Notes under the pieces: model-generated | What the model saw: the letters and a program-made list of their open reading frames with translations, nothing else | What the model was told of the DNA's origin: nothing | Database searches by the model: none | Shown: positions 16,494 to 48,460 of the stretch, one piece after another | Numbering within the stretch: the first letter of the stretch is position 1 | Layout: every line of letters begins with the position of its first letter | Made by a program: the position numbers and the translations under genes | Source of the DNA: Streptomyces sp. ISL-96 | GTDB lineage: Bacteria; Actinomycetota; Actinomycetes; Streptomycetales; Streptomycetaceae | DNA: 64,000 bases | NCBI RefSeq assembly: GCF_018614035.1 | Contig: NZ_JAGGPA010000020.1 | Span: 186,001 to 250,000, forward strand | Direction of reading: 5' to 3'

Positions 16494-16640
16494 GATGGCC
16501 TCCTGATCTGCGGCGGAGCAGTCTTGGCCGCCTGTTGGTGGCAGTCCTGCGGCTCCGTGACCGACGGGCTTGTCGGGGACCGGTGGTTCATGGGATTCCT
16601 CTTGGTGCGCCAGGGCTGGGAAGAAGGGGCGCTCGGCTGC

Positions 16641-18712: not shown

Positions 18713-18738
18713 CTCGTTCTCCTTTCGACTCGCGTCGG

Positions 18739-21700
18739 TCACATACAGGAAGTCGGTTGTTCGGCGGCGCGCAGCACGGCCTTCGCCGCTTCCGCCGGGC
18801 GAGTGCGCGGAAAGTGGTGACCGCCGTTGGCGAGCTCGTGCAGTTCGACGTGGTCGGCCAGCAGTTGCCAGTCGAGGTACCGCTCCCGGAAGCCCGCGGT
18901 GATCGGGTCGTCGGCGGCCACGACCACCGTGACCGGTGCGGACAGTTTCACCGCCGGCGGGCTGTCCAGGGCGTCCGCGAAATAGCGGTGGGCGGAAACA
19001 ACGTCGTGCCGGTAGGCGGCGGCGACGCGCTCGGCCTGCCCGGCATCAAGCCCACCGAGCCCGGGGTAGCGGCTGTCCGCGCTCAGCTCGGCGGCGATCC
19101 GGTTGTCGCTCCGCCCGGTCAGCTCGGTTACGGCCGCACGCCGGGCGGCCGCGTCACCGAGCAGCTGCGCCGCGACGAACACCCGCTGGACGCCGGCCCC
19201 GCGCTCCTCAAGCCTCTTCGCCGTCTCCAAAGCCGGCGCGGCACCCGAGGACTGGCCCCACAGCAGGATCTCTGTGAGGCCGAGGCGGGCGATCTCGGCG
19301 CTGACCTCCTCGACCAGTTGCGCCTGCGATGCGAAGGGTCCGCCGTCGGCGGTCACGTCGTGACCCGGCGGCTCGACGGCGTACACCGCCGGTCCGCTGC
19401 CCTGCAGGGCCCTGGCCATCGGCTCGAAGCTCACCGCGCCGCCGCCGGCGTCGGGGAAGCAGACGAGGGCGCCGGTCCGGGCACCGTCCGGTTCCGACAG
19501 GGGCTGCAGGAGCCCGGAGGACCGCTCGCATCCGCCGTCGAGCAGCCGGGCCAGGTCGGCGAGCACCGGGTGTCGTGCGACGTCCTTGAGGGACACCGCA
19601 CGGTCCAGGGCGACTGCCAGCTTCACCGCCGACAACGATGTGCCGCCCAGGTCGAAGAAGTGGTCCAGCCGTCCGATCCGGTGCTGCGGGATGCCGAGCA
19701 CCTTCGCCCAGGCGGCCGCCAGCCGCTGTTCGGCCGGCGTCATCGGCTCGGCCGTGGTCATCGGCGCACCACGGTCCTCGCCGGCTGTGTCGAGTTCGGC
19801 GGCCAGCGCCGTCAGGGTCTTCCGGTCGGTCTTGCCGTTGGCGGTCACCGGCAGGTCTTCCCGCCAGTGGACGGCCGACGGGACCATGTACGCGGGCAGC
19901 GACTCGCCCAGCCGGTCCAGCAGGACGCCGGTGTCGAGCGGCCGCGGGCCGGTGCAGAAGGCCACCAGGTGCGTGCTGCGGTCGGGCCGCTCGGCGACGA
20001 CCACCGCACCGTCGCGGACACCGGGCACCCGCAGCAGGGTGTTCTCGATCTCGCCGATCTCGATCCGGAAGCCGCGGATCTTGACCTGGCTGTCCCGGCG
20101 GCCGAGGAAGTCCAGTTTGCCGCCGGGCAGCCAGCGGCCGTAGTCGCCGCCCCGGTAGAGGCGCCGACCGGCGCCGTGCGGATCGGTCATGAAGGCCTGC
20201 CGGGTGCGCTCGGGGTCGTTGACGTACCCGCGGCCGACGCAGACGCCGGAGAAGACGATCGCGCCGGGGGCGCCGAGCGGCACCGGTGACAGGTGCTCGT
20301 CGACGACGTAGACACGCACGTTGTTGACGCACCGGCCGAGCGGCACCCGCTCGGTGTCCGGAACCCGGTCCATGACCTCGTGGTTGGTGTCGTCCGAGGT
20401 TTCGGTCAGCCCGTAGGCGTTGACCAGCCGGATCCCCGGTGCGGCAGCGAACCAGCGCTGCGCGAGCGGCTTCTTGAGCGCCTCGCCGGTGGCCGATACG
20501 TATCGCAGGTCCGGCAGTTCCCGGGGGCGCTGCTCCAGGCAGGACAGTACGACGTCGAGGTAGGACGGCACGACCTGAAGGACCGTGACCCGGCCGTCGG
20601 CGATCCTGTCCACGAACCGCTGGACGTCCAGGATCACCTCCTGCTCGACCAGCAGGGTCCGCCCTCCCACCACGAGCGCGGAGAGCAGCTGCCACAGCGA
20701 TATGTCGAAGCACTGGGGTGCGGTCTGGGCGACCACCTGGCCCTCGCCGATCTCCAGGTCGTCGATCTTGGCGTAGAGGTGGTTGAGCATGCCGGCGTGT
20801 TCGCACATCGCGCCCTTGGGCTCGCCGGTGGAGCCTGAGGTGAAGTAGATGTACGCCGCCTGGTCCGCTGCCACGCGGACGCCGAGGTCGGCGCCGGCAT
20901 GGGCCTCGGCGTAGACCTCGTCGACGTAGAGCTTCCGCACTCCGGGCGGCGAGCCGGGGGACGGCGAGCCCAAGGACGGCCGGCGGAGGGCCTGGTCGAG
21001 CGTGGCGGTGCTGCCGCGTTCGGTCAGCACGAGCGCGCATCCGGCGCGGGACAGTGTGGCCGCGATGCGCTCGGCCGGGAAGTGCGGCTCGATGGGCAGG
21101 TACACCCCGCCGGCCTTGAGGACGGCGAGGACGGCGGCCAGCCAGTCCAGGTTGCGCTCGGTCACCACGGCGACGACACCTTCGCGGCGCAACCCCCTGG
21201 CCAGCAGGGCCCGTCCGAGCCGGTTGGCTCGTTCGTTGAGCTCCCGGTACGTCCACTGGCGCTCGCCGTGCATGGCCGCGACGGCCTGCGGGTGGGCCCG
21301 TACCCGCTCCTCGAACAGTTCGTGAATCCTGCGGTCCGGCAGGTCCCGGTGCGGCCCGGCCAGTCCTTCGGTCTGGAACCGGAGCTCCTCGGCGGAGAGC
21401 AGGCTCTGCCGCCGGTGCCCCGCGTCCGGATCGGCGGCGATCAACGCGAGCGCGGTGAGGTGGTAGCCGGCGATCCGGCCGGCGGTGTCCGCGTCCAGCG
21501 CGTCGGTGCGGTACCGCAACCGCAGTGCGAGCCTCTCGCCGTCTCGCGACACCCCCAGCCCCAGTACGACGTCTCCGGGCAGGTCGCCGTCGCCGTCGAC
21601 CGGATCGAACACCGCCTCGGTCGACGGTCCTGCCAGGCGCAGCTCGTGCCTGAGGTCGTCGACCGGGAAGTCCTTGTGCGCCAGCATGTGCGACTCGGCC

Positions 21701-22038
21701 CGGCGGGTCCGTACCAGCAGTTCCCGCCACGAGTCCGGTGCGGTCGTGAGCCGGCAGGGCAGCGGCGGGGCGCCCCCGACGGCGACGTAGCCCGTGCTGA
21801 CCTCGAGGTCGCCGGACAGCGCCGCGAGCACCTTGGCGTGCGCGGCGAGCACCACCGAGGTGACCGGCATCGCCAGATCCTCGGCGAGCCGGTGCAACGC
21901 CGCCGCGACGTCGTCCGGGACCGTCGTCTCGTACGTGGCGATCCCCGGCACCGGATCCGGCGCCCAACGCGGGAGCGCGGTGGATCCACCGGCGGTGAGC
22001 ACACCGCTCCAGAAATTCCGGCCGGCCTCGGTCCGCAT
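18739..22038 (-). CDS. NRPS: half condensation domain, adenylation, PCP, thioesterase
   Basis: In this 1099-aa protein, residues ~1-230 match only the second half of a condensation domain and lack HHxxxDG. Residues ~235-735 are an adenylation domain (YIYFTSGSTGEPKG, NAYGLTET, GRRDSQVKIRGFRIE, ANGKTDRK). The PCP is at ~765-835 with Ser801 (GGTSLSAV). A type I thioesterase has Ser931 (GQSSGAA) and a C-terminal GGHHF His. By-eye alignment to GrsA gives a pocket D-I-W-Q-S-T-A-D-D-K; two acidic residues at 330/331 suit a basic side chain such as Dap. ATG 22038 has GGAGGGAG 8 nt upstream. It probably activates Dap and releases or cyclises the product; substrate and product are inference. Confidence 0.88.
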   Translation of the reverse strand: MRTEAGRNFWSGVLTAGGSTALPRWAPDPVPGIATYETTVPDDVAAALHRLAEDLAMPVTSVVLAAHAKVLAALSGDLEVSTGYVAVGGAPPLPCRLTTAPDSWRELLVRTRRAESHMLAHKDFPVDDLRHELRLAGPSTEAVFDPVDGDGDLPGDVVLGLGVSRDGERLALRLRYRTDALDADTAGRIAGYHLTALALIAADPDAGHRRQSLLSAEELRFQTEGLAGPHRDLPDRRIHELFEERVRAHPQAVAAMHGERQWTYRELNERANRLGRALLARGLRREGVVAVVTERNLDWLAAVLAVLKAGGVYLPIEPHFPAERIAATLSRAGCALVLTERGSTATLDQALRRPSLGSPSPGSPPGVRKLYVDEVYAEAHAGADLGVRVAADQAAYIYFTSGSTGEPKGAMCEHAGMLNHLYAKIDDLEIGEGQVVAQTAPQCFDISLWQLLSALVVGGRTLLVEQEVILDVQRFVDRIADGRVTVLQVVPSYLDVVLSCLEQRPRELPDLRYVSATGEALKKPLAQRWFAAAPGIRLVNAYGLTETSDDTNHEVMDRVPDTERVPLGRCVNNVRVYVVDEHLSPVPLGAPGAIVFSGVCVGRGYVNDPERTRQAFMTDPHGAGRRLYRGGDYGRWLPGGKLDFLGRRDSQVKIRGFRIEIGEIENTLLRVPGVRDGAVVVAERPDRSTHLVAFCTGPRPLDTGVLLDRLGESLPAYMVPSAVHWREDLPVTANGKTDRKTLTALAAELDTAGEDRGAPMTTAEPMTPAEQRLAAAWAKVLGIPQHRIGRLDHFFDLGGTSLSAVKLAVALDRAVSLKDVARHPVLADLARLLDGGCERSSGLLQPLSEPDGARTGALVCFPDAGGGAVSFEPMARALQGSGPAVYAVEPPGHDVTADGGPFASQAQLVEEVSAEIARLGLTEILLWGQSSGAAPALETAKRLEERGAGVQRVFVAAQLLGDAAARRAAVTELTGRSDNRIAAELSADSRYPGLGGLDAGQAERVAAAYRHDVVSAHRYFADALDSPPAVKLSAPVTVVVAADDPITAGFRERYLDWQLLADHVELHELANGGHHFPRTRPAEAAKAVLRAAEQPTSCM

Positions 22039-35483: not shown

Positions 35484-36521
35484 TCACGGCCGGGCCGACG
35501 CGGCAGTCGCAAGCGTGGCGGCAATTCCCTCGGCCAGTGGGATCGACGGAACGAACCCGAGGTCCGTGCGGGCTCGTTCGGTTGAGCACGTCCATGCCGC
35601 GCAGCGCAGTTCCCGGGTCTTGTCCCGGTTGAGGGGTGGTACGAAACCACGCAGCCGCCCCAGTGCTTCCGCACACTCGGCGACCCCTCGCGTCACGGTG
35701 TGCGGGACGGGGAGCACCAGCGGGGGCCGGCGGCCCAGCACGTCGGCCACTGTCCGGCAGATCCCCTGCCAGGTGTGTTCCGTGCCGTCCGAGACCGTGT
35801 AGACACCCGAGTCCGGGACGTCGGGACACATCGTTCTGCCCCGGGTCGCAGCCGCGAGCAACGCCGTGCACAGGTCGTCGACGTGGATGACGGAGTAATG
35901 CCTCGGCCCGAAACCGCTTTTGAGGACGAGCCCACTGCGGATCATCGGCAGCAGTGACGGCAGGAACGCCGGGTCGCCCGGCCCGTACACGATGGGCGGC
36001 CGGATCGCGACCACTGTCAGGAGGCCGGCCAGTTCCCGGACAGCAAGCTCTCCGGCGAGCTTGCTGCGCCCGTAGTGGGATACGGGGGCGGCAGGCTCGT
36101 CCTCGGTCCGCGGCTGCCACGGTCGGGCAGGGCCGGCGGCGGCGAGCGAGGAGCATACGACCAAGCGCGGCGGGGACGGCAGCGAGGCCAGCACCTCGGC
36201 GAGTCGCCCGGAGCCCGCTGCGTTGCAGTGCCAATAGCCCTCGGCGGAGCGGGACTTGACCACTGCGGCGAGATGGAAGACACAGTCCGCACCGTCGGCC
36301 GCCTCGCGGACCGCCTCGGCACCCTCCGTGCTGGTGAGATCGCCCACGATCAGCCGCGCGTCGGAGGGGAGGCCGGACCGGACGGAGGTTTCTCGCACCA
36401 GGGCCGTGACCCGGGCGCCCTGTGCGGTGAGTCGGGCACACAGGCGTCGCCCGACGAAGCCAGTGGCACCGGTGACCAGAAACCTCTGTCCGGCGAGATC
36501 GTCGAAGCTGTAGCGGGTCAC
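35484..36521 (-). CDS. Extended SDR, candidate 3-keto-ceramide reductase (CerR-like)
   Basis: The 345-aa protein is an NAD(P)-dependent epimerase/dehydratase-type SDR: cofactor loop GATGFVG (residues 18-24), Ser125 and the Y150-x-x-x-K154 pair, then IRPPIVYGPGDPAFLP and HVDDLCTALLAA. In the bacterial ceramide pathway an SDR of this kind (CerR) reduces the keto group formed by the SPT-like enzyme. Here it is divergently placed 193 bp from the acyl ligase/ACP/SPT-like operon. The GTG at 36521 has AAGGAG 8 nt upstream and removes an implausible 31-residue Arg-rich extension. The general SDR call is firm; the ceramide role is inferred from context. Confidence 0.82.
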   Translation of the reverse strand: MTRYSFDDLAGQRFLVTGATGFVGRRLCARLTAQGARVTALVRETSVRSGLPSDARLIVGDLTSTEGAEAVREAADGADCVFHLAAVVKSRSAEGYWHCNAAGSGRLAEVLASLPSPPRLVVCSSLAAAGPARPWQPRTEDEPAAPVSHYGRSKLAGELAVRELAGLLTVVAIRPPIVYGPGDPAFLPSLLPMIRSGLVLKSGFGPRHYSVIHVDDLCTALLAAATRGRTMCPDVPDSGVYTVSDGTEHTWQGICRTVADVLGRRPPLVLPVPHTVTRGVAECAEALGRLRGFVPPLNRDKTRELRCAAWTCSTERARTDLGFVPSIPLAEGIAATLATAASARP

Positions 36522-36629
36522 CGTACGACTCCTTGCTCGTCCCCGGTGCGACCGGCTCGAGGGCGCGCAGGGCACATCGGTCTTGTGTATGGGAGGCATC
36601 GCCGGGAGCGGCACCGTACCACTCTAAGT

Positions 36630-36640
36630 ACGTGACGTAT
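36630..36640. promoter_or_regulatory. Inverted repeat in the divergent promoter region
   Basis: TACGTGACGTA is an 11-bp inverted repeat in the 193-bp region between the divergent SDR and acyl ligase genes, in a locally AT-rich stretch. It could be part of an operator, but no regulator gene is adjacent. Confidence 0.3.
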
Positions 36641-36714
36641 TCAGTCAGTTACTCGTAGCGCCTTTGCTCGTTGAGGAGAAGCAGTCCTGAAAGCGGGTCG
36701 AGGAGGAACAGTTG

Positions 36715-38487
36715 GTGGCGTACGACGGGGACCTTGCGCGGTCGTGTGCGACGTTGACCGAGGTTCTCCGCACGCACGCTCGCTCGGGGGTGTCGGCCAC
36801 TGTGGGGGTGGCCGGGGACGCGGAGTTGACCTATCCCGAGTTCTGGGCGCGCGTCGTGGAACGCGCCGCATGGTTCACCGGGCATGGGGTGAAACGGGGC
36901 GACGCCGTCGCACTTGAGATGGACAGCACCACGGTGGCGATGGTGGCGTCCTTGGCGATCCCGCTCTGCGGGGCTGTCCTGGTGCCGACCGGTGTGCCGA
37001 GAGGGCTCGGCGCCAATACCCAGGAACGGTTCCGGGCGCTGGCCGCGCTGCGGGTCGGCGGAGCGCGCTGGTACGTGTCGGACGGCGCACCGGTGATCGG
37101 CCCGGAGGAGACTCGCGCCGCCGGACTGACGGTGGCGCATCTGTCTCTGGCAGACGTACCGGAGCGGGTCGCCGCCCATGTGGCGGAAGCGCCCGCACCC
37201 ACGCCCGATCCGGACGACGTCGCCATGGTCCAGTTCAGTTCGGGCAGTCTGGCCGCCCCCAGAGGAATCGTTCTCACCCACCGCAACCTGGCCGTGAACC
37301 TGCACGCCATCACCGAACGCATCGGGCTCATGGCAGCCGGGCGCTCGGTGTCGTGGCTCCCGCTCTCCCACGACATGGGCCTGATCGGAAGCTTCTGGGC
37401 CAGTCTGTACGCGGGATTCGCCTTCCGGGCGCTGCCACCGGGTTCGTTCGTACGTGATCTGCTGCGCTGGATCGAGCAGTTGGGCGACTTTGGCGCCACG
37501 CACACCACCGGACCTCCCTTCGCCTACGAGATGGCTGCCCGCGCCGCGGGGCGTGCGCCCGCCCGGCTGGCCGGCGTCGACCTGTCCGCGCTGAGTGTCG
37601 CCGTCATCGGCGCGGAGCGTGTCGCGCCGCGGCTTTGCGAGCGGTTCGAGGAGACGTTCGCCGGGCACGGGATGCGCCGCCATGTGCTTCTGCCGGCTTA
37701 CGGGTTGGCGGAGAACTGTGTCGCGGTCGCCTGCCGGGCCCCGCTGGTCGGCTCGGCGGTGCGCCGATTCGACACGGCCGAGCTGGAGCGCGGACGACTG
37801 GTTCCGCTGCCTCGGCCCCGATCCTCGTCGGAGTCGGCCGACGACAGCGGCGGCGTGCGGGAACTCATCGGGCACGGCGCCCCGCTGCCGGGCACCGAGG
37901 TGCGGATCGTAGCCCCGGACGGGCGGGAACTGCCCGAAGGACGAGTCGGCGAGATCCGGATCGGTGGAGAATCGGCGGCCCGTTGGACGATCGGCCCCGA
38001 CGGTGTACGACGTCCGGCGGCCGGGGACGACGGCCTCGTCCCCACCGGGGACCTCGGTGCGCTGGCCGGCGGCGAGCTCTATGTGATCGGGCGCTCGAAG
38101 GAAGCCGTGAAGTACGCGGGACGGCTGCTGGCCCCCACAGACATCGAGCAGACGGTTCTCGATGCCTCGCCGGAGCACCTCGGAGCTGTTGCCGCGGTCG
38201 CCGTGGCACGGGAAACAGCGGCAACTGAGGACCTCGTGCTGTTCCTGGAACTGGCGGATGCCCGGAGGACAGCCACCGGGATGGTGGACGAGGCCGCTCT
38301 GGTGAGCAGCGCCCGGCTGACCGTACTCCGTGAGTTCCGGGTGCCGGTGAGTGATGTCTACATCGCACGGCGAGGCGCGCTGCCGCGGACGGCCAGCGGC
38401 AAGGTGCGACGGCTCAGCCTGGGTGCCGCCGCCATGGCCGGTGAGCTCCCTCCCGGAGTGAGACCGGCCGCGTCGGCGGAGTCCTGA
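36715..38487 (+). CDS. Fatty acyl-AMP ligase-like acyl-ACP synthetase
   Basis: The 590-aa adenylate-forming enzyme has features of fatty acyl-AMP ligases: P-loop QFSSGSLAAPRG (Leu replaces the usual Thr), WLPLSHDMGLIGSFWASLY, PAYGLAENCVAVACRAPL, TGDLGALAGGELYVIGRSKE and PRTASGKVRR with the C-terminal catalytic Lys. It would activate a fatty acid as acyl-AMP and load it onto the ACP encoded next to it, as AasR does in bacterial ceramide synthesis. The start is GTG 36715, 8 nt after AGGAGG; a TTG one codon upstream is also possible. It is the first gene of the lipid operon. Confidence 0.85.
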   Translation: MAYDGDLARSCATLTEVLRTHARSGVSATVGVAGDAELTYPEFWARVVERAAWFTGHGVKRGDAVALEMDSTTVAMVASLAIPLCGAVLVPTGVPRGLGANTQERFRALAALRVGGARWYVSDGAPVIGPEETRAAGLTVAHLSLADVPERVAAHVAEAPAPTPDPDDVAMVQFSSGSLAAPRGIVLTHRNLAVNLHAITERIGLMAAGRSVSWLPLSHDMGLIGSFWASLYAGFAFRALPPGSFVRDLLRWIEQLGDFGATHTTGPPFAYEMAARAAGRAPARLAGVDLSALSVAVIGAERVAPRLCERFEETFAGHGMRRHVLLPAYGLAENCVAVACRAPLVGSAVRRFDTAELERGRLVPLPRPRSSSESADDSGGVRELIGHGAPLPGTEVRIVAPDGRELPEGRVGEIRIGGESAARWTIGPDGVRRPAAGDDGLVPTGDLGALAGGELYVIGRSKEAVKYAGRLLAPTDIEQTVLDASPEHLGAVAAVAVARETAATEDLVLFLELADARRTATGMVDEAALVSSARLTVLREFRVPVSDVYIARRGALPRTASGKVRRLSLGAAAMAGELPPGVRPAASAES

Positions 38488-38577
38488 ACATTCGGCGTCC
38501 TGGCCACGTGGCCTGACAGGCACGGATTCCCGAGTGACAACGCGAAGACCGAAACAAGGCAGAGGAAGAGGACACCC

Positions 38578-38883
38578 GTGGAAACAGCGCCGACGTCGAC
38601 CGAGGCCGCCCGTCAGGTACCGGACCGGGAGGACCTCAAACGACGTCTGGCCGCTCGGCTGCGTGTCGGCACGGAGGCGCTTTCCGATAAGGCCACGCTT
38701 GATCAACTCGGGCTCGATTCACTGCTGCTGGCGGAGATGGTGGCCGACGTCGAGACCCGCTACCACGTGGAGTTCGACATGGCGGTGTTCGCCGAGAACG
38801 TCGTCCCCACCCTCCCTCTCGGCGCGTTCCTCGACCTGCTGGGCGAGGGGACGAGCCGGGGTTCCTCCCATGCCGACGCCTGA
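38578..38883 (+). CDS. Acyl carrier protein
   Basis: The 101-aa protein is a stand-alone carrier with the phosphopantetheine site at Ser48 in LGLDSLLLAEM. It has an N-terminal extension of ~18 residues and a C-terminal tail that overlaps the next gene by 14 nt. It probably receives a fatty acyl group from the upstream ligase and presents it to the dehydrogenase-like proteins and the alpha-oxoamine synthase. GTG start at 38578 with GAGGAAGAGG upstream. The Sfp-type PPTase at 26549 could activate it. Confidence 0.88.
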   Translation: METAPTSTEAARQVPDREDLKRRLAARLRVGTEALSDKATLDQLGLDSLLLAEMVADVETRYHVEFDMAVFAENVVPTLPLGAFLDLLGEGTSRGSSHADA

Positions 38884-39820
38884 CCGGGGTGACGACGCGG
38901 GGCTGGGCGGGGCCGTGCTCGGGACCGTTTGCGGGCGGCTGACCCTGCCGCTGCTCGACCGTTTGGCACCGGGTTCCTCGGTACGGCCGGACCGGGTGAG
39001 TACCGCACTGAGCCACGCGACCACCCACGGTCTGCTGGGAACCCGCTGCGACATCGCACTGCACGGGCCACCGGGTCGCCTGGAGGCACAGGGACACGCC
39101 GACCATGTTCTCGGTCTGCCCGACGCACGGGCGGTGCTCGCCGAAGGCATTCGCCGATATGACGGTCGACAGGTACTGCTTCTGCTGCCCCTCGGCACGG
39201 CGCACACGCACGTACGGGAACAGCGATTCGGCGCTTTGGCCGGTGCGCGGTTCGCCAGGCTGGAGGTGACCGCGCTTCCCGTGCCCGACCACGCGCTGCT
39301 GGGCACCGTGACGCAGCATGCTCCGCTCCTTGGCGACGCCGTGGCGGCCACTCGGCTGAGCCTCGCCCGGCTGCTGACCGACCTGGGCCAGCAGTCCGTC
39401 TCGGATGTTCTCGGGTATGCGAGCCGCAGGCCGTTTCAGGACGGCGCCCTGACGGACCGCCAGGCGTTTCTGCACGCCTTGACCGAAGCCACCGCGGAGG
39501 TCCGGATGTGCCACGCGGTGACGCGGCGGGCCGCCGCCGCAGGCGGACCCGCCCGGTGGGACCGTGCTGTGCGGGCTGGGGTGTTCGTCTCCCGGGCGGT
39601 ACCCAAGTCGGTGGGCACCGCATGTCGGCTCTTCGGCGGCCAGGGGTTCATGGACGGGCATCCGATCGCCGCGGCCTATCGCGAAGCGGTCTTCGCCCCG
39701 GTACTGCTCGGCGGGCAGCGGCGGCTGGTCGACAGCATGCGCGAACGGCTGGCGGGCCACGCGCCCTCCCCGCGGACGGCCGGGCGGGCCGGGCAACCGG
39801 CGTCGGCGAGCCTGCGGTGA
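38870..39820 (+). CDS. Acyl-CoA dehydrogenase-like protein, short
   Basis: The 316-aa protein resembles the C-terminal helical half of acyl-CoA dehydrogenases (RRPFQDGALTDRQAFLHALTEA, KSVGTACRLFGGQGFMDGHP, YREAVFAPVLLGG). The N-terminal helical domain is shortened. FAD binding and the catalytic base cannot be confirmed by eye, so it may be a non-catalytic partner of the full-length dehydrogenase encoded next. ATG 38870 lies inside the end of the ACP gene, which indicates translational coupling. It probably acts on the ACP-bound acyl chain. Confidence 0.75.
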   Translation: MPTPDRGDDAGLGGAVLGTVCGRLTLPLLDRLAPGSSVRPDRVSTALSHATTHGLLGTRCDIALHGPPGRLEAQGHADHVLGLPDARAVLAEGIRRYDGRQVLLLLPLGTAHTHVREQRFGALAGARFARLEVTALPVPDHALLGTVTQHAPLLGDAVAATRLSLARLLTDLGQQSVSDVLGYASRRPFQDGALTDRQAFLHALTEATAEVRMCHAVTRRAAAAGGPARWDRAVRAGVFVSRAVPKSVGTACRLFGGQGFMDGHPIAAAYREAVFAPVLLGGQRRLVDSMRERLAGHAPSPRTAGRAGQPASASLR

Positions 39821-40980
39821 GGCGGGCCACGCCGCCGGGCACTGCGAGGATGCTCGATCCAAGCTCTCCCGCAGCGTTTCGCGAGTCGGCGCGCGTCCTG
39901 GTCGACGCCGAGATCACACCCCATCTGGCGCACTGGGAGCGGCAGGGGACGGTGCCGCGGTCGCTGTTCGAAACCATGGGCCGAGCCGGGGTGTTCGGCA
40001 TCGGCGTACCCGTGGACCAGGGGGGACTGGGGCTGGACCTCGCTCACGGCATCGCATTCGGCCGCGCCGTGATGCGTGAGTCGGCCGCCGGAGTGTGCAC
40101 CAGTCTTTTGGTGCTGACGCACTTGGTCGCCCCTCTGCTGGCCCGCCACGGCACCCCCGGGCAACGGGACAGGTGGCTGCGCCCGATCCTTGTCGGCGAG
40201 ACCGTCGCCTCGGTCGCGTTGACCGAGCCCGCCGGCGGCTCCGATCTGGTCCGCTCCGTTGCCGCCACGGCCCGGTCCGAACCGGACGGGTGGGTCCTGC
40301 GGGGCGAGAAGACATTCATCACCAACGCGCCCCTCGCCGACGTCCTGGTCGTCCTCGCCCGCACCACCCCCGGCACCTCCGCCCTGGGCCTGACCCTGTT
40401 CCTCGTACCCGCAGATCTGCCCGGGGTCGTTGTCACGCAGCTCACGACGGCGGGGCTGCACGCCTCCCCGACCGGACGGGTGAGTTTTGAGGACTGCCGA
40501 CTGCCCCGCGAAGCCGTGCTCGGACGCCCCGGACTCGCCATGGCCCTCCTGGCGAGAATCCTCCCGGAGGAGCGTCTGGCGATCGCGGCGGGAGCCCTGG
40601 CCTGCGCTCGCTGGGCACTGGAGCGAACGGTACGTCTGGTGGGTCCGACAGACCCGGCCATGCCCGAACTCGCTTGGTGGGAGGCCGAATTGGAGGCGGC
40701 CGAGAGCTACGTCGACGCCACTGCGGAACGGATCGGCGGCGCCGACGATCAGCTGGACGCCGCGTTGGCCAAGACGGCCAGTGCCCGGCTGGCGCAGCGG
40801 GTCGTACAGGAATGCGCACGGCTGTCGGGCCCCTGCGCCTTCCGGGATGACGAGTCCGTTCCCGGCATGCTGACCGCGCTGCGCGATGTCCGTGTCTTCA
40901 GCGTGTACGGCGGCAGCTGCGAGACGGTCCGGGACACGGCCGCCGCAGAGATTCTTCGCGGCGTACGCACCACCGCGTAA
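39817..40980 (+). CDS. Acyl-CoA (acyl-ACP) dehydrogenase
   Basis: The 387-aa protein is a full-length acyl-CoA dehydrogenase: LGLDLAHGIAFGRAVMRESA, SVALTEPAGGSDL (FAD/substrate loop), LRGEKTFITNAPLAD and the C-terminal VFSVYGGSCETVRD with the Glu near the usual catalytic position. It would insert a double bond into an acyl chain, here probably carried on the ACP. The GTG at 39817 overlaps the previous stop by 4 nt (GTGA); ATG 39850 is an alternative. Paired dehydrogenases suggest a heterodimer and an unsaturated fatty chain or long-chain base. Confidence 0.86.
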   Translation: MRRATPPGTARMLDPSSPAAFRESARVLVDAEITPHLAHWERQGTVPRSLFETMGRAGVFGIGVPVDQGGLGLDLAHGIAFGRAVMRESAAGVCTSLLVLTHLVAPLLARHGTPGQRDRWLRPILVGETVASVALTEPAGGSDLVRSVAATARSEPDGWVLRGEKTFITNAPLADVLVVLARTTPGTSALGLTLFLVPADLPGVVVTQLTTAGLHASPTGRVSFEDCRLPREAVLGRPGLAMALLARILPEERLAIAAGALACARWALERTVRLVGPTDPAMPELAWWEAELEAAESYVDATAERIGGADDQLDAALAKTASARLAQRVVQECARLSGPCAFRDDESVPGMLTALRDVRVFSVYGGSCETVRDTAAAEILRGVRTTA

Positions 40981-41024
40981 GCCCGCACCACGCACAGGAG
41001 CGAGAAAGGGAGGTGAGACCACCG

Positions 41025-42287
41025 ATGGAATTCGGGCCCGCGCACAGCAGCATGCTCGACCTGGTGGACCGCTGGCAGCAGGAGGGCACGTATCCGCTGT
41101 TTCCACTGATCACGGAGGCCGCGACGACTCGGGCCCGGATCGGGGTGCCCCATGCCCGCCCCGGTTCGGGGAACGCCCCCGACCGGGCGGTCACCGTCTT
41201 CGGATCCGCCGACTATCTCGGGCTTGCCCGGCATCCGGAGGTGCTGGAAGGCGCGCTCGCCGCCACCCGCCGGTTCGGCACAGGCACGTACGGGACCCAG
41301 GCGGTCGGCGGATACACCCAGCTGCACCAGGAGTTGGAAGCCGCCGTGGCCGCCTGGTCGGGGCACCCGGCCGCGCTGCTCTTCCCAACCGGGATGCAGG
41401 CCAACCTGGGCATACTCGGCACCCTGGCCGGACCGTGCGACCATGTCTTCGCCGACCGCTTCAACCATCAGTCGATCACCATGGGGATCCGGCTGTCCGG
41501 AGCCACCACGCACGTCTTCCGGCACAACGACACCGAGCATCTGGCGGAGTTGCTCCGTGCGGCGAGCCGGCCGGAACGGTCGGGGCGGCGGCTGATCGTC
41601 GTGGACGGACTGTTCAGCGCCGACGGTGACCTCGCCCCGCTGGCGGAGATCGCCGATCTGGCCGAACAGTACGACGCCCTGCTCATGGTGGATGAGGCGC
41701 ACAGCGCGGGCACGCTCGGTCCTCAGGGGCGGGGTGTGGCCGAGTTGTGCGGTGTGCTGGACCGGGTCAACGTCGTGACGGGTACGTTCAGCAAGGCGTT
41801 CGCCTCCACCGGAGGATTCGTCTGCGCCGACACCGACGTGGTGACGCTGCTCAGGCACTCGGCGGACGCCTATCTGCTGTCCCTGGGCCTGCCGCCCGGC
41901 ACCGTCGGGGCAGCACTGGCGGCGTTCTCGGTGCTGGCGGAAGAAGGCGCCGAGCGGCGGCGCAGGCTCCAGGACAACGCGCGTACGCTGCGCGCCCGGC
42001 TGCACGCCGTCGGCGTCGGCACGGCAGACTCCGCCGCCCACGTGGTCGTGGTGCCGGTGGGCACCATGGACCGCACCGCGCGCGTCACCCGGCGGCTGGC
42101 CGAACGCGGCCTGCTGGTCTGCCCCTTGTTCCCTCCGGCCGTGCCGATCGGCGGAGCCCGGCTACGACTCGGCGTCTGTTCGGAGCACACCGAGGAGGAC
42201 ATCGACTACGCAGTCGGCCTGATCGCCGCCGCCCTTGCCGAGGACGAGGAGGCCCGCGGCGCGGAGCCGGTGAAGGGGACGGCGTGA
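41025..42287 (+). CDS. Alpha-oxoamine synthase, serine palmitoyltransferase-like
   Basis: The 420-aa PLP enzyme belongs to the SPT/KBL/BioF family: VFGSADYLGLARHPEV, GTYGTQAVGGYTQLHQELE, DEAHSAGTLG (Asp223, His226) and the PLP Lys257 in TGTFSKAFASTGG. Such enzymes condense an acyl thioester with an amino acid and release CO2 (serine gives 3-ketosphinganine). With an adjacent ACP, acyl-ACP synthetase, SDR and N-acyltransferase it fits the bacterial ceramide pathway. The ATG at 41025 lies downstream of an AAGGGAGGTGA ribosome site. The amino acid used (Ser, Ala, Gly or other) cannot be read from the sequence. Confidence 0.87.
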   Translation: MEFGPAHSSMLDLVDRWQQEGTYPLFPLITEAATTRARIGVPHARPGSGNAPDRAVTVFGSADYLGLARHPEVLEGALAATRRFGTGTYGTQAVGGYTQLHQELEAAVAAWSGHPAALLFPTGMQANLGILGTLAGPCDHVFADRFNHQSITMGIRLSGATTHVFRHNDTEHLAELLRAASRPERSGRRLIVVDGLFSADGDLAPLAEIADLAEQYDALLMVDEAHSAGTLGPQGRGVAELCGVLDRVNVVTGTFSKAFASTGGFVCADTDVVTLLRHSADAYLLSLGLPPGTVGAALAAFSVLAEEGAERRRRLQDNARTLRARLHAVGVGTADSAAHVVVVPVGTMDRTARVTRRLAERGLLVCPLFPPAVPIGGARLRLGVCSEHTEEDIDYAVGLIAAALAEDEEARGAEPVKGTA

Positions 42288-43438
42288 CGGCCATGTCGCG
42301 TGCCCTGGCCGAGCCACCCCGTGTCACGGCGGTGCGCGGCGCCGCGCGGCGCCGGGAGTTCATCCGGCTGCCGTACCGGCTGTACCGGGGCGACCCCTGC
42401 TGGGTGCCGCCTCTGGAGAGCGAGCGCAAGGCGTTCCTCAACCCGCGGAAGAACCCGTTCTTCGAGTTCGGCGACGCCGAGCTGTTCCTCGCTCATCGGG
42501 GAGACCGGGCCGTCGGACGCGTCGCCGCCGTCCACAACCCCCGGCACAACACCCACCATGGTGGCAGCGACGGATTCTTCGGGCTCTTCGAGTGTGCGGA
42601 CGATCCCGGCGCGGCCCAGGCGCTGTTCGAGGCCGTCGGGGACTGGCTGCGCGTCCGCGGGCTCACCTCGTCGGTGGGGCCGGTGAGCTTCTCGACCAAC
42701 AGCGAATGCGGCACGCTCGTGGAGGGTTTCTCCTCATCGCCGGCTGTCCTGATGCCGTACAACCCGCCCCATCACGAAAAGTTGCTGCTGTCCTGCGGAT
42801 TCGCCAAGGCCAAGGATCTGTGGGCCTGGGAGTGGACCACACAAGCGCCGGTGGACGACGCCGTCACGCAGCTCGCGCAATGGGCGGAAGGGCGCGGTGG
42901 CGTTCGCGTACGGCCGCTCGACCTGAGCGACTTCGACGGCGAGGAGCGGCGGCTGCGGGACATCTACACCAACGCCTGGGAACGGAACTGGGGCTTCGTA
43001 CCCCCCACGGAGCGGGAGTTCCGCCACCTCACGGCGCAGCTTCGGCGCATTGTCCGGCCCGAACTGGTTCTGGTCGCGGAGGTGGACGGGGACCCGGCGG
43101 CATTCTGTCTAGCCGTCCCCGACGCCAATCAGGCGCTGAAGGCGGCCGGTGGTCGGCTGACCCGATACGGGCTGCCCATCGGCCTGATCCGGGCCACCAG
43201 AGCCGCCCGGAGAATCGACCGGTGCCGACTGATCGCCCTGGGAGTGAAGGCGGAATACCGGCACCGAGGCCTCGACGCACTGCTGTACACGCGCCTTGCA
43301 CAGGCCGGACGCCAACTCGGCTACAGAGGCGGCGAGTTGTCGTGGGTCCTGGAGGACAACTACGCCATGAACCAGGCCATCGCGCGGATGGGAGCACAGC
43401 GGTCCAAGACGTACCGGATCTATCAGCGGCCCCTGTGA
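42284..43438 (+). CDS. GNAT-fold N-acyltransferase, candidate bacterial ceramide synthase
   Basis: The 384-aa protein starts with FIRLPYRLYRGDPCWVPPL and NPFFEFGDAELFLAHRGDRAVGRVAA. It has a central SSVGPVSFSTNSECGTLVEGF block and a C-terminal GNAT-like half (DRCRLIALGVKAEYRHRGLDALLY ... GGELSWVLEDNYAMNQAI). This is the pattern of the GNAT-like proteins that serve as ceramide synthase in bacterial sphingolipid makers, adding a second fatty acyl chain to the amine. The GTG start overlaps the SPT-like stop by 4 nt (GTGA), the tightest coupling in the operon. The family match is from memory of the pattern, so the specific role is moderately sure. Confidence 0.72.
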   Translation: MTAMSRALAEPPRVTAVRGAARRREFIRLPYRLYRGDPCWVPPLESERKAFLNPRKNPFFEFGDAELFLAHRGDRAVGRVAAVHNPRHNTHHGGSDGFFGLFECADDPGAAQALFEAVGDWLRVRGLTSSVGPVSFSTNSECGTLVEGFSSSPAVLMPYNPPHHEKLLLSCGFAKAKDLWAWEWTTQAPVDDAVTQLAQWAEGRGGVRVRPLDLSDFDGEERRLRDIYTNAWERNWGFVPPTEREFRHLTAQLRRIVRPELVLVAEVDGDPAAFCLAVPDANQALKAAGGRLTRYGLPIGLIRATRAARRIDRCRLIALGVKAEYRHRGLDALLYTRLAQAGRQLGYRGGELSWVLEDNYAMNQAIARMGAQRSKTYRIYQRPL

Positions 43439-43471
43439 TCAGAGGGCTGAGGAACACGGAGGCGAGACGCG

Positions 43472-44110
43472 ATGACAGCGAATGAGTCACTGCGGTCCGA
43501 CGAGAGCGCCGGGCGGGCGGACCAACTGCGAGCGTCTCCGCCGATGTTCCGCTCGCGGTTCCTCGACCGCTTCACTCGTGTGCATCCCGCCGTGCCCCCG
43601 TTGCTGCACGGGCCGGTCGTACTTCTGCTGCTCGCCTGGGCGGTCCGGCACAACGAGGCGCTCCCACTCCTGGCGTACTGTCTGCTCGGCTACGCAGTAT
43701 GGACGCTGACCGAGTACTGGGTGCACCGGGCTCTGTTCCACTTCACCCCGCGCAGCGCGTGGGGGCGCCGGGCGCACTGGATGGTGCACGGGGTCCACCA
43801 CGATCACCCCAACGATCCCCGGCGGCTGGTGATGCCTCCCTCGGTCAGCATTCCCGGCGCATACGGTGCCTACGAGCTGTTTCACCTGCTGGCGGGAGCG
43901 GGGCCGGGCGCCGCCCTGACCGGCGGATTCATCGCGGGCTATGTCGTGTACGACGTCCTGCATTTCCACATGCACCACCACCGCCCGTCCACGGCCCTGG
44001 GACGGCGCCTGCGCAACCGACATCTGCGCCATCACTTCCAGGACGAACGGCGCGGCTTCGGCGTGAGCTGCCCCTACTGGGACCACGTCTTCGGTACCGC
44101 CTCGCGCTGA
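43472..44110 (+). CDS. Fatty acid hydroxylase, FA2H/sterol-desaturase family
   Basis: The 212-aa integral membrane protein has hydrophobic segments at ~48-90 and ~130-160 and the His clusters of the di-iron membrane hydroxylases: HRALFH, HGVHHDHPND, HFHMHHHRP and RHLRHHFQDE. The order and spacing resemble fatty acid 2-hydroxylase (Scs7/FA2H), which hydroxylates C2 of the ceramide fatty acid. That fits its place directly after the N-acyltransferase gene. No cytochrome b5 domain is fused. ATG 43472 has GGAGGCGAGA upstream. The gene end overlaps the convergent MMPL gene by 37 nt. Confidence 0.85.
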   Translation: MTANESLRSDESAGRADQLRASPPMFRSRFLDRFTRVHPAVPPLLHGPVVLLLLAWAVRHNEALPLLAYCLLGYAVWTLTEYWVHRALFHFTPRSAWGRRAHWMVHGVHHDHPNDPRRLVMPPSVSIPGAYGAYELFHLLAGAGPGAALTGGFIAGYVVYDVLHFHMHHHRPSTALGRRLRNRHLRHHFQDERRGFGVSCPYWDHVFGTASR

Positions 44111-46323
44111 CGGGCTCCCCGCCAGGCCGGCAGCCACCAGTTCACCCGGCCCGCGAGTTGCATCACGGCGGGTACGAGCAGTGCGCGTACCACCGTGCAG
44201 TCCACCAGAACGGCCAACGCGAGGCCGACGCCCACCACGCGTAGGTGCAACAGCCCGGACAGTGCCAAAGAGGACATGGATACGGCGAAGACCAGTGCGG
44301 CGGAGGTGAAGAGCCGGCCTGTCTGCTGGAGACCGGTGGCCACGGCGAGCGGGGTGGGGCTGCCGCGCCGGTGTTCCTCAAGGATCCGCGAGAGCAGGAA
44401 GACCTCGTAGTCCATGGAAAGGCCGAAAGCGACCGCGAACATCAGGGGGATGAGCACATCGGTGATGCCCGCAGGAGACACACCGGGAAACCAGCCCTCC
44501 TGGAATACGGCGACCAGGATGCCGAAGGTGGCGGCCAGGCTCAGCATGTTCAGCAGCACAGCCTTCACCGGCACGAGCAGACTGCGCGTGTAGACCAGCA
44601 GCAGGAGGAAGGTCCCACCGCAGGCGAGTACGGCCACGAGCGGCAGCCGCTCTGTCATCACCTTCTCGGTGTCCGCCAGCCGGGCACCCGGACCACCGAC
44701 GAGAGCCGGAACCGGTGCGGGAACCCCACGGAGCCGTTCCACCAGCCGGCTCCCCTCAGGAGTGAGCGGCGCGCGGGCGTACGTCTGAGGGGTCACGGCC
44801 AGCCGACTGGCCGATCCGGCGCTGAATGACGCCGCCCGGACTGCCGGGAGCGGTGACCGATTTCCGGCGCGGTAGATCCCGGTCGCGGTGTCCACCCGGG
44901 CCACTCCCGGGACGTGGGACAGTCTGCGGGCGTATCCGTCGAGCGCCGCCCGGGCGCGCGGGTCCGCCGTGGCGTTCAGGCCGGGCAGCACGACGGAGGG
45001 GGCGCCCGACGAGGCGGCGCCGAATTCTGTGCGGAGGATCCGGGCGGTCGAGGCGACCGGCGAGGACTCCGGGAGCGTCGCGTCGGCGTACACCCCGAAC
45101 CGCACCCCAAGCGCCGGTACGGCAAGGAGGATCAGGAAGGTGAAGCCGGCGAGCGCGACGGCCGTCGGCCTTCTCACCACCCAGTGCGCCAGCCGGGCCC
45201 AGGTGTCGCCCTCCCGGCGACTGCCGCGCGGTCGGCGCAGTCGGGCGAAGACGTCCCCGCTGTCGATACGGGCTCCGAGTACCACGAGCAGCGCAGGCAC
45301 GACGGCCAACGCCCCTACGGCGGAGGTGATGACGATCGCGGTGCCGCCGAAGGCGAGGGATCGCAGCAGCGGCAGCGGGACGACGAGCAGAGTGCACAGA
45401 GCCGCCACCACGGTGGCGGCGGAGAACGCCACGGCGCGTCCGGCAGTTCGCAGCGTGACCTGCACCGCCGCGTCCGGGGTGTTACCTGCCGCGACCTCCT
45501 CCCGGTAGCGGGAGACGAGCAGCAGGCTGTAGTCCACGGCCAGCCCGAAACCCAAGGCGGTGGTGACACTGACGCTGAAGGCCGACACCGGCACCACACC
45601 GTCCAGCAACCGCAGGCATGCCCCAGCGGTTACCACGGCGAACGCGCCCACCACGACCGGAAGCAGCGCGGCCACGGCGCTGGAGAACACCCACAGCAGG
45701 ATCAGCAGGATCACGGGAGCCGCGATGAGCTCGGCCAGGAGCAGACCGCGTTCGCTGAGGTGTTCGCTTTCGGAGAGGACCGCGTCCTCGCCCCCGGCGG
45801 AGACTCGCAGTGCCTCATCGGGCCCGGTCTTCCCGGTGTAGCGGTCCATCGCGTCATTCGCGGCCGCACGCACGGCTTGCTCGTCTCCGTGGAAGCGCAC
45901 CAGTACCAGCGCGCGACTGCCGTCGGCCGTACGGAACTCGGGGACCCGGAGCGGCCAGTACCCTCGGACCCACTCGGTGCGGGGATCGGCGGCGAGACTG
46001 TCGAGCAGTTTCTGCCCGGCCCGCGTGGCGCGCGGGCTGTCGACCGACCCGGAAGAGGTGGCCACCAGCGCCAGATGCGGTTCACCGGTGCTGAACCGGG
46101 AGGCCAAGAACTCGTCGGCACGCAGGGACTCGGCGGTGGGCGGCGTCCAGCTCTCGGGGGAGGGCCGGCTGCCGACTCCGAGGAGGACCCAGACCGCGCC
46201 GCAGGCGGCCAGACAGGCGAGGACGAGCACCCGAGCCGCACGGCGTCTCGCAAGCTGTGCGGGGACCGGCGGTTCACCGAGCTGCCGGATTGTCGTGTGC
46301 CCCTTCTGGGAGGCGGTCTTCAT
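44074..46323 (-). CDS. MMPL-family lipid exporter
   Basis: The 749-aa RND-type protein has two halves of about six membrane segments, each with a large external loop. The proton-relay motifs are visible as GLAVDYSLLLVSRYREE in the first half and GLSMDYEVFLLSRILEEH in the second. MMPL proteins move lipids across the inner membrane. Here it is convergent with the ceramide-type operon and is the likely exporter of its product. ATG 46323 is chosen; a TTG 30 nt upstream extends the frame but is a poor start. No strong ribosome site is visible. An efflux role for another compound is possible. Confidence 0.85.
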   Translation of the reverse strand: MKTASQKGHTTIRQLGEPPVPAQLARRRAARVLVLACLAACGAVWVLLGVGSRPSPESWTPPTAESLRADEFLASRFSTGEPHLALVATSSGSVDSPRATRAGQKLLDSLAADPRTEWVRGYWPLRVPEFRTADGSRALVLVRFHGDEQAVRAAANDAMDRYTGKTGPDEALRVSAGGEDAVLSESEHLSERGLLLAELIAAPVILLILLWVFSSAVAALLPVVVGAFAVVTAGACLRLLDGVVPVSAFSVSVTTALGFGLAVDYSLLLVSRYREEVAAGNTPDAAVQVTLRTAGRAVAFSAATVVAALCTLLVVPLPLLRSLAFGGTAIVITSAVGALAVVPALLVVLGARIDSGDVFARLRRPRGSRREGDTWARLAHWVVRRPTAVALAGFTFLILLAVPALGVRFGVYADATLPESSPVASTARILRTEFGAASSGAPSVVLPGLNATADPRARAALDGYARRLSHVPGVARVDTATGIYRAGNRSPLPAVRAASFSAGSASRLAVTPQTYARAPLTPEGSRLVERLRGVPAPVPALVGGPGARLADTEKVMTERLPLVAVLACGGTFLLLLVYTRSLLVPVKAVLLNMLSLAATFGILVAVFQEGWFPGVSPAGITDVLIPLMFAVAFGLSMDYEVFLLSRILEEHRRGSPTPLAVATGLQQTGRLFTSAALVFAVSMSSLALSGLLHLRVVGVGLALAVLVDCTVVRALLVPAVMQLAGRVNWWLPAWRGARQREAVPKTWSQ

Positions 46324-46556
46324 CACGCCCGGGGCAACGACGCCACGGACCAACCGTCACCGGGCTGGTCATAATTGATGAGGACGTTTCCCAACTCCGT
46401 ACAGCCGACGTGGACGGTCGCGTGTGAGTGGGGCGCGTCCATACGGAACGGCATCGCCGCTCGCCGCCACGTGCCCGGCAACCCGTGTCCGCGCGGAGGA
46501 CGCATGACGGGAACCAGCCCAGTCCAGACGCCCTTCGTCCTCCAACTCACGCTGGG

Positions 46557-47167: not shown

Positions 47168-47422
47168 AGGTGGGGTCTCCTCGCAAATGAGCCACCCCAG
47201 CCATTCCCCACCGGCCACCTGTATTCGGCCAATAATGCGGAACAGATTCTCTGATACCCAGCGTCCTGCTCGCCGCTGAACAAGGGGGCCTGCGAATTTA
47301 TGGACCCGAACGCGGGACCGGATGGGGCTACCCGATCCGCCAGGACGGCGTGTACAGCCGTTGACGCGCCGAGCCGTGATTACAGTGCCCAGCCAGGCTG
47401 GAACGGCAGAGAGGGGCATCCT

Positions 47423-48460
47423 GTGCAGTGGGCGTACATCGGCTCGTTCACCTCGGGGGGCGGCCGCGGCATCACGGTCGCGGCCGTTGACGCGGCGACC
47501 GGGGCGCTGACCCCGCGCACGAGCGTCGACGCCGTCGTCAACCCCTCGTGTCTCGCCCTCGCCGCGGAGACCGGGGTCCTCTACGCGGTGAGCGATACGG
47601 ATCCGGGCGCGGTCGCGGCCTTCCGCACCGGGGCGGACGGGAGCCTCAGCGCGCTCGGCCCGGCAGTGGGGGTGGGCGGCTCCGGCCCCACCCATCTCAG
47701 CGTGGCCGGGAGCCGACTGTTCACCGCCAACTACGGCTCGGGCAGCGTCAGCAGCTTCGCGACGGGACCCGATGGGAGCGTTTCGGGTCCCCCCATCGTG
47801 CTTGCGCACCACGGCTCGGGGCCCGACGGCGAGCGGCAGAGGGGACCACACGCCCACCAGGTGCTGCCGGATCCCGGCGGGCGATGGGTGCTCAGCGTGG
47901 ACCTGGGAACCGATTCGGTAAGGGTGTGCGCGCTCGACCAGGTCACCGGAGAGCTCCGGGTGCACACCGAGACGGTGCTCCGCGCCGGGTCGGGACCGCG
48001 TCACCTCGCCTTTCACCCGGACGGCGAGGTCGTGTACGTACTGCACGAGCTGGAGCCGCAGATGACGGTCTGTCGTTGGGATCCGGCGTGCGGGCGCCTG
48101 GAACCGCTGGCGGAGGCGGCGATCGATCCCGAAGGTGCCCCGGAGGGAGAGCAGGTCTACCCCTCCGTGGTCTCCGTCTCGCCCGACGGCCGCTTCGTCC
48201 GCGCCGCAGTGCGGGGCAGCAACAGGATCCTGACGTTCTCCCTCGCCGACGGGGCCGAGAAGCCACAGCTCACGAGCGGCGTGGACTGCGGCGGGAGCTG
48301 GCCGCGCGACTTGGTGGCCGACCCTTCTGGACGCCGGTTGTACGTCGTCAACGAGTGGTCAAGGGACGTCACCTGGTTCGACGTGGACGCGGAGAGCGGT
48401 CAACTGCACCGCGGCGGCGCGCTGGAGGTTCCGGCCGCCGCTTGCGTGGTCTTGTCGTGA
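47423..48460 (+). CDS. Lactonase family protein (YbhE/Pgl-type seven-bladed propeller)
   Basis: The 345-aa protein has the repeated blades of the bacterial 6-phosphogluconolactonase/YbhE family: YIGSFTSGGGRGITVAAVD, NPSCLALAAETGVLYAVSD, GPHAHQVLPDPGGRWVLSVDLG, GSGPRHLAFHPDGEVVYVLHE and WPRDLVADPSGRRLYVVNE. The GPHAHQV segment contributes to the conserved centre. It may hydrolyse sugar lactones in the cytosol. GTG 47423 with GAGAGGGG upstream is chosen; the 41 codons before it look non-coding. It is a stand-alone gene. Confidence 0.85.
   Translation: MQWAYIGSFTSGGGRGITVAAVDAATGALTPRTSVDAVVNPSCLALAAETGVLYAVSDTDPGAVAAFRTGADGSLSALGPAVGVGGSGPTHLSVAGSRLFTANYGSGSVSSFATGPDGSVSGPPIVLAHHGSGPDGERQRGPHAHQVLPDPGGRWVLSVDLGTDSVRVCALDQVTGELRVHTETVLRAGSGPRHLAFHPDGEVVYVLHELEPQMTVCRWDPACGRLEPLAEAAIDPEGAPEGEQVYPSVVSVSPDGRFVRAAVRGSNRILTFSLADGAEKPQLTSGVDCGGSWPRDLVADPSGRRLYVVNEWSRDVTWFDVDAESGQLHRGGALEVPAAACVVLS

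Follow-up and report, generated by a model that had tools for sequence, protein, structure and literature searches.

A 64,000-nucleotide stretch of the Streptomyces sp. ISL-96 genome (NZ_JAGGPA010000020.1, positions 186,001 to 250,000; hereafter the window, from contig C16 of the 101 contigs in the 8.0-Mb assembly) carries a block of genes for what is, with fair probability, a ceramide-type N-acylated amino-alcohol lipid whose biosynthetic front half has been exchanged. The block (35484–46353) is a single 10.9-kb unit with every pathway gene. It begins with a short-chain dehydrogenase/reductase (SDR) on the minus strand, continues on the plus strand with a ligase, an acyl carrier protein (ACP), two acyl-CoA dehydrogenase (ACAD) homologs (ACADb, then ACADa), an alpha-oxoamine synthase (AOS), a GNAT N-acyltransferase and a hydroxylase, and ends with an MMPL-family protein on the minus strand. 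An initial annotation had described an apparently complete ceramide cluster of the Caulobacter type with a synthase resembling serine palmitoyltransferase (SPT). The open reading frames (ORFs) it named are all present, with matching coordinates, and each passes its Pfam cut-off, the GNAT modestly (PF00583, 26.8 bits with a cut-off of 20.7). A ceramide-type pathway is partly supported as the best reading, but a non-canonical one: curated models do not identify the synthase as an SPT, and the list that had been called apparently complete omitted both dehydrogenases, which are the most unusual part. The initial annotation had also argued from the rarity of sphingolipids in Gram-positive bacteria, an argument weaker than assumed, as ceramides have been reported from S. 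aurantiacus (Stankeviciute 2022, cited via PMC11743623). With Streptomyces ceramides already in print, what is new is the rewired front end.

The synthase falls below every cut-off of the three curated SPT models in NCBIfam, scoring 303, 297 and 236 bits where 500, 640 and 670 are called for. Its best NCBIfam model is BioF, at 346 bits with a cut-off of 426 (for each protein, the best 25 models were shown). The SPT-like designation is therefore not supported in the form given, and the observation that the initial annotation had named as refuting it, a greater closeness to the KBL/BioF type, is borne out in part. BioF also ranks first for the homologs in two related clusters, those of S. griseocarneus (L019) and L136. 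Three synthases from the AOS-GNAT-SDR triads of other Streptomycetaceae were scored as well; an SPT model comes first, below its cut-off, in two, and in L144 BioF is just ahead of an SPT model. The PLP lysine and the conserved His/Asp/His/Arg set of fold type I alpha-oxoamine synthases are present, with K257, H148, D223, H226 and R381 aligning with E. coli BioF K236, H133, D204, H207 and R361, and with Kbl. All five synthases of the window type depart from the commonest residue at position 92 (Q for R), 153 (M for D), 199 (A for M) and 285 (L for F). Loss of Asn at the BioF N47 position was considered as a mark of a substrate switch and dropped, as this Asn is likewise missing from 9 of 47 other synthases. 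The source genome encodes two further AOS at E≤0.001, one KBL-like and one divergent.

In our trees, which leave out sequences under length or score limits, and for which six added synthases were trimmed to 355 residues around the PLP lysine, the five window-type AOS stand apart from a clade (100/98 and 100/99) that takes in 40 of the other 43 AOS linked to a GNAT. The L021, L022 and L023 synthases likewise fall outside this clade, so that an outside position is not unique to the window-type cluster. A clade joining the window type with 22 Streptomycetaceae triad AOS is rejected (approximately unbiased test, p = 0.006). Setting the window-type AOS together with all 40 SPT-like rows against the rest is compatible with the trees at low support (60/62; 93/83 in a smaller set), and because this grouping fits, an SPT-like enzyme could also have diverged fast. 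We favor replacement of the AOS over rapid divergence on the tree positions, in which branches are long and the deep order is weakly placed.

The SDR and GNAT tell a different story from the synthase. The window-type GNAT form a group (100/95) within a clade shared with 18 triads (96/90), and the window-type SDR (100/98, L136 excluded) lie inside the Streptomycetaceae AOS-linked SDR clade. The nearest triads disagree, being L144–L147 for the SDR versus the 18 for the GNAT. We propose from these placements that both proteins descend from Streptomycetaceae ceramide-type triads, whose AOS, in contrast, belong to a different lineage. In Streptomycetaceae outside the window, the GNAT has an AOS no more than 3 kb away at 26 of the 27 loci examined, the miss being L148 with its partial GNAT, and AOS and SDR occur together in 24 of the 27 stretches; for 12 loci in the rest of the phylum the corresponding counts are 8 and 3. 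MMPL and hydroxylase genes, which the window has as well, are each found in 4 of 22 triad stretches. FAAL or dehydrogenase genes are found in none of the 22, and some triads have a ketosynthase (KS) or P450 neighbor.

The same two families link the block to Alphaproteobacteria (the class of genome G297, assigned through the Hyphomicrobiales locus L022), where the GNAT family occurs at E≤1e-10 in 41 of 289 genomes. Among 43 matches, 20 neighborhoods were examined: 13 contain an AOS, 9 an SDR, 7 a ligase like the fatty acyl-AMP ligases (FAALs) and 13 a hydroxylase-family gene, with ligase, SDR and AOS together in 7. An ACP sits between SDR and AOS in all eight gaps examined. Two alphaproteobacterial AOS that were scored exceed the NF047599 SPT cut-off (559.6 and 600.1 bits, cut-off 500) and fall under the other two. 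Judged by sequence, the GNAT and SDR thus belong to families that are found with SPT-type synthases in Alphaproteobacteria. The ligase-SDR-ACP-AOS order of these loci is that of aasR-cerR-acpR-spt among the Caulobacter crescentus ceramide genes aasR, cerR, acpR, spt and cerS, as given in PMC11324152. The comparison was with these loci, C. vibrioides entering only as a control tally. The window has the same set of predicted activities as the Caulobacter pathway, its GNAT and SDR families are shared with the loci of that gene order, and its ligase/ACP pair parallels AasR/AcpR. It differs in its synthase, in the added dehydrogenase pair and MMPL protein, and in forming one 10.9-kb block. The ceramide assignment is supported for the N-acyltransferase, the reductase and the ligase/ACP parallel, and not supported for the synthase.

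An AlphaFold model of the GNAT (nine sequences; pLDDT 82, pTM 0.81) predicts a tandem GNAT, and the structures that match it best are likewise tandem GNATs, 7q3a among them (Z 23.3, root-mean-square deviation 3.8, 303 aligned), with FemX and N-myristoyltransferase further down the list. A sequence search of the PDB gave nothing below E 0.07. The modeled fold is compatible with acyl transfer to an amine and is silent on the substrate. For the SDR, no NCBIfam model among the 25 shown exceeds its cut-off, the best being OleD (90 of 580 bits).

The front half consists of adjacent genes for a FAAL-like ligase, a free ACP and the two dehydrogenases (36715–40980). The best NCBIfam model for the ligase is PRK07768, named long-chain-fatty-acid--CoA ligase (276 of 572 bits); FAAL models come next, and none of the 25 shown passes its cut-off. 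In the PDB, 18 entries match at E≤1e-25; 7 bear the name FAAL or FadD23/28/32, and the others include acyl-CoA synthase, polyketide synthase (PKS) and adenylation-domain entries. We regard FAAL as the likely class of this ligase. It adjoins an ACP and may be an acyl-ACP synthetase; it is at most a possible AasR ortholog, as window-type ligases, AasR-like ligases and other FAALs form separate groups in the ligase tree, with the window type no nearer to the AasR-like group than to the other FAALs. In ACADa, an invariant Glu lies in an [EQ]ERLAI motif in the three sequences aligned and is kept in L136, at what we take to be the LCAD/IVD-type catalytic site, and the YEGT-type Glu is lost. ACADb lacks Glu at both of the positions that are presumably catalytic in acyl-CoA dehydrogenases, and on this alignment it is possibly a non-catalytic partner subunit. 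A structure model of ACADb (three sequences; pLDDT 42, pTM 0.33) was too poor and was not used. No NCBIfam model among the 25 shown for either dehydrogenase passes its cut-off, the best for ACADa being RedW (150 of 650 bits). A ligase, a carrier protein and an acyl dehydrogenase also occur together as MbtM-MbtL-MbtN of mycobactin, where they serve lysine acylation.

FAALs are described as loading ACP and rejecting CoA (PMC8460268), and in actinomycete lipopeptide clusters ACADs encoded with a FAAL and an ACP are described as inserting 2-, cis-3- or 2,4-double bonds, with the role of friulimicin LipB shown by gene disruption (PMC9113097). As in the window, ligase, carrier protein and dehydrogenase(s) occur together in the laspartomycin, taromycin and malacidin clusters (PMC9113097) and in the rotihibin cluster, which has a FAAL, two ACADs and an ACP (PMC8552735). 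These lipopeptide sets feed a peptide synthetase, whereas the set in the window lies upstream of an AOS, and the ACADs stand between FAAL and ACP in the clusters of PMC9113097 but after the ACP here. In Pseudomonas fluorescens, an AOS within a biosynthetic cluster (PfSgaAB) yields a secondary metabolite that is a sphingoid base (PMC12134224); there a PKS builds the chain, while in the window the ligase would take up a preformed fatty acid. The words sphingolipid and ceramide are absent from the main text of a FAAL review (PMC11837247; term search), and a FAAL-ACP-ACAD-AOS cluster is not described among the matches listed for the open-license literature, with no query joining all four names.

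The gene set is not a chance neighborhood. Positions 35512–46383 align with S. europaeiscabiei DNA (L017) as a single piece at 90% identity, and the block aligns in pieces with OV320 (L018), S. griseocarneus (L019) and L136, with no match longer than 150 columns outside the block in the flanks compared (3.2 and 7.1 kb for L017). With the window these make five clusters of one type. L019 is rearranged, and L136, from a member of the genus, has a different gene arrangement, its SDR being split over frames in a draft assembly. The dehydrogenase pair is present in four of the five, as are the hydroxylase and exporter families. In our genome samples the GNAT is found at E≤1e-20 in 13 of 297 genomes of the family and 21 of 392 of the genus, and with a profile at E≤1e-40 in 45 of 396 of the phylum; ACADb at E≤1e-20 is found in 2 of 295 genomes of the genus, each time inside a window-type cluster. 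A match in G278, near the OV320 locus, was counted only once. In a comparison aimed at an empty site, the gene flanking the block on the right (47302–48460) was traced to G598 and G604; the 19.9 kb around each copy shows no further match to the window longer than 200 columns. Because the block aligns without matching flanks and its occurrence is scattered, it is probably a self-contained, horizontally moving pathway. In one genome, G698, the window-type L136 with its FAAL and dehydrogenases coexists with a regular triad (L135) that has MMPL and hydroxylase genes.

In the pathway that we envisage, the ligase would convert a fatty acid via the acyl-AMP to a thioester on the dedicated ACP, and ACADa, with ACADb possibly assisting as a non-catalytic partner, would oxidize the ACP-bound chain to the 2-enoyl-ACP. 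The divergent AOS would then condense this with an amino acid, for which serine is our default guess and alanine or glycine are possible. An AOS joins C1 of the acyl chain to the amino-acid carbon, so that with a 2-enoyl-ACP as substrate the resulting 3-oxo base would carry a 4,5 double bond. N-acylation of the base would fall to the GNAT, the SDR would reduce the 3-oxo group, the hydroxylase would act on the acyl chain or the base, and the MMPL protein would export the lipid. Even granting a ceramide-type product, the desaturation step could about equally well be real or not. The combined proposal is more tentative still: that bacterial 4,5-unsaturated, sphingosine-like ceramide-type lipids arise here by dehydrogenation of the ACP-bound chain before condensation, in a Streptomyces ceramide triad that has acquired a FAAL-ACP-ACAD unit together with a non-SPT synthase, is a possibility that we hold at well under even.

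Several observations weigh against this picture. BioF is the best model for the synthase, and since the enzyme lies below the SPT cut-offs and outside the SPT-like clade, the use of serine lacks family support. The replacement of the synthase is tempered by mean identities of 40.1% between the window-type and triad AOS versus 35.4% to those of Alphaproteobacteria. The S. griseocarneus cluster lacks the dehydrogenases and the L136 stretch lacks hydroxylase and MMPL genes, so that dehydrogenation, hydroxylation and export are not fixed steps. PMC9113097 states that no mechanistic studies of the lipopeptide ACADs have been reported. Finally, five divergent GNAT loci have an SDR in all five stretches and a FAAL in four, with no AOS in any; because the GNAT-SDR pair also occurs without an AOS, it is no proof of ceramides.

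Some of these points would also suit a canonical Caulobacter-type dihydroceramide pathway, with an AasR/AcpR-like ligase and ACP, a diverged SPT, and dehydrogenases that are incidental or recycle acyl chains. The five activities match, the GNAT and SDR are shared with alphaproteobacterial loci whose two scored synthases pass one SPT cut-off, the S. griseocarneus version does without dehydrogenases, and the window-type synthases are closer in identity to those of the triads than to the alphaproteobacterial ones. We nonetheless consider this unlikely, as the AOS reaches none of the SPT cut-offs and stands apart from the SPT-like clade, the ligase is no nearer to AasR-like ligases than to other FAALs, and the dehydrogenase pair is kept in most of the window-type clusters. 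An improbable alternative to the same degree is a product that is no sphingolipid, in which the AOS would use a different amino acid to form an amino-ketone, and the amide then made by the GNAT would be a secondary metabolite of the acyl amino-alcohol or amino-ketone kind and not a membrane ceramide. In the family sample, six synthases from outside the AOS's own group match it at E≤1e-76 (40–45% identical), and the two whose surroundings were viewed by eye both adjoin KS/ACP polyketide-like genes; FAAL-ACP-ACAD sets supply natural-product starter units (PMC9113097), and AOS-free GNAT-SDR pairs stand beside PKS-like genes. The nesting of GNAT and SDR within AOS-linked triad clades argues for a ceramide-type lipid instead, as does the recurrence of the hydroxylase and exporter families.

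The features of the block are collected in Table 1. The ACADb start (ATG) lies inside the ACP gene, whose stop is at 38881–38883, and the GNAT start overlaps the AOS stop (42285–42287); because of these overlaps the plus-strand genes look like one operon.

Table 1. Genes of the 10.9-kb block, with positions numbered from the first letter of the window
Feature	Position	Strand	Domains and motifs
Extended SDR/epimerase, CerR-like reductase	35484..36614	-	PF01370 E 1.6e-34; motifs GATGFVG, YGRSK
FAAL-like ligase	36715..38487	+	PF00501; mechanical ORF opens at TTG 36712, next codon GTG 36715
ACP, GLDSL serine site	38578..38883	+	PF00550 E 3.3e-10
ACADb, shortened acyl-CoA dehydrogenase-like	38870..39820	+	PF00441 only (C-terminal domain)
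ACADa, full-length acyl-CoA dehydrogenase	39850..40980	+	PF02771, PF02770, PF00441
AOS	41025..42287	+	PF00155; PLP residues kept
Tandem-GNAT N-acyltransferase, CerS-like	42284..43438	+	PF00583 E 6.7e-6
Fatty-acid/sterol hydroxylase family	43472..44110	+	PF04116 E 2e-17; His-rich boxes HRALFH, HGVHH, HLRHH
MMPL-family exporter candidate	44074..46353	-	PF03176 E 1.6e-81

Other loci of the GNAT family show further arrangements. The AOS-free loci are L037, L038, L149, L150 and L151, in a divergent clade of the GNAT tree; by eye, the gene calls of L037, L038 and L149 include adjoining ACP and PKS-like genes, and we offer the reading that these loci may represent a related acylation pathway that operates without an AOS. 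In Streptomycetaceae, one protein family recurs in 8 of 26 stretches (including L036, L136, L138, L141 and L144), and the three members scanned (L036, L136, L144) are beta-ketoacyl synthases; ACP genes are seen by eye in L036 and L144. Some Streptomyces triads may thus have chain-building enzymes of their own. In 10 of 26 stretches, proteins encoded upstream of the AOS were placed in one group; its only scanned member, from L033, is a cytochrome P450, and those of L030 and L031 look alike by eye, while the L036 member is unlike a P450, making the count of 10 too high or mixed. The L021 genome (Candidatus Aminicenantes) has five GNATs of the family, with an AOS 6.5 kb from one. Elsewhere in the window, at 15492–21951 on the minus strand, cysteine-synthase-like and SbnB-like genes are seen by eye next to one for a large protein that resembles condensation domains; this may be a peptide cluster that uses diaminopropionate.

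Dihydroceramide in bacteria has been contrasted with ceramide in eukaryotes (PMC10191378). If the proposed dehydrogenation is correct, the block would provide a route to the 4,5 double bond, which is usually missing from bacterial ceramides, and the chemistry of this route would not depend on the dihydroceramide desaturase of eukaryotes. It would also mean that a ceramide pathway can swap its condensing enzyme and keep its N-acyltransferase and reductase. In Streptomycetaceae the GNAT-SDR pair seems to be set in several architectures, with KS, P450 or FAAL neighbors, each of which is a candidate sphingolipid-like cluster.

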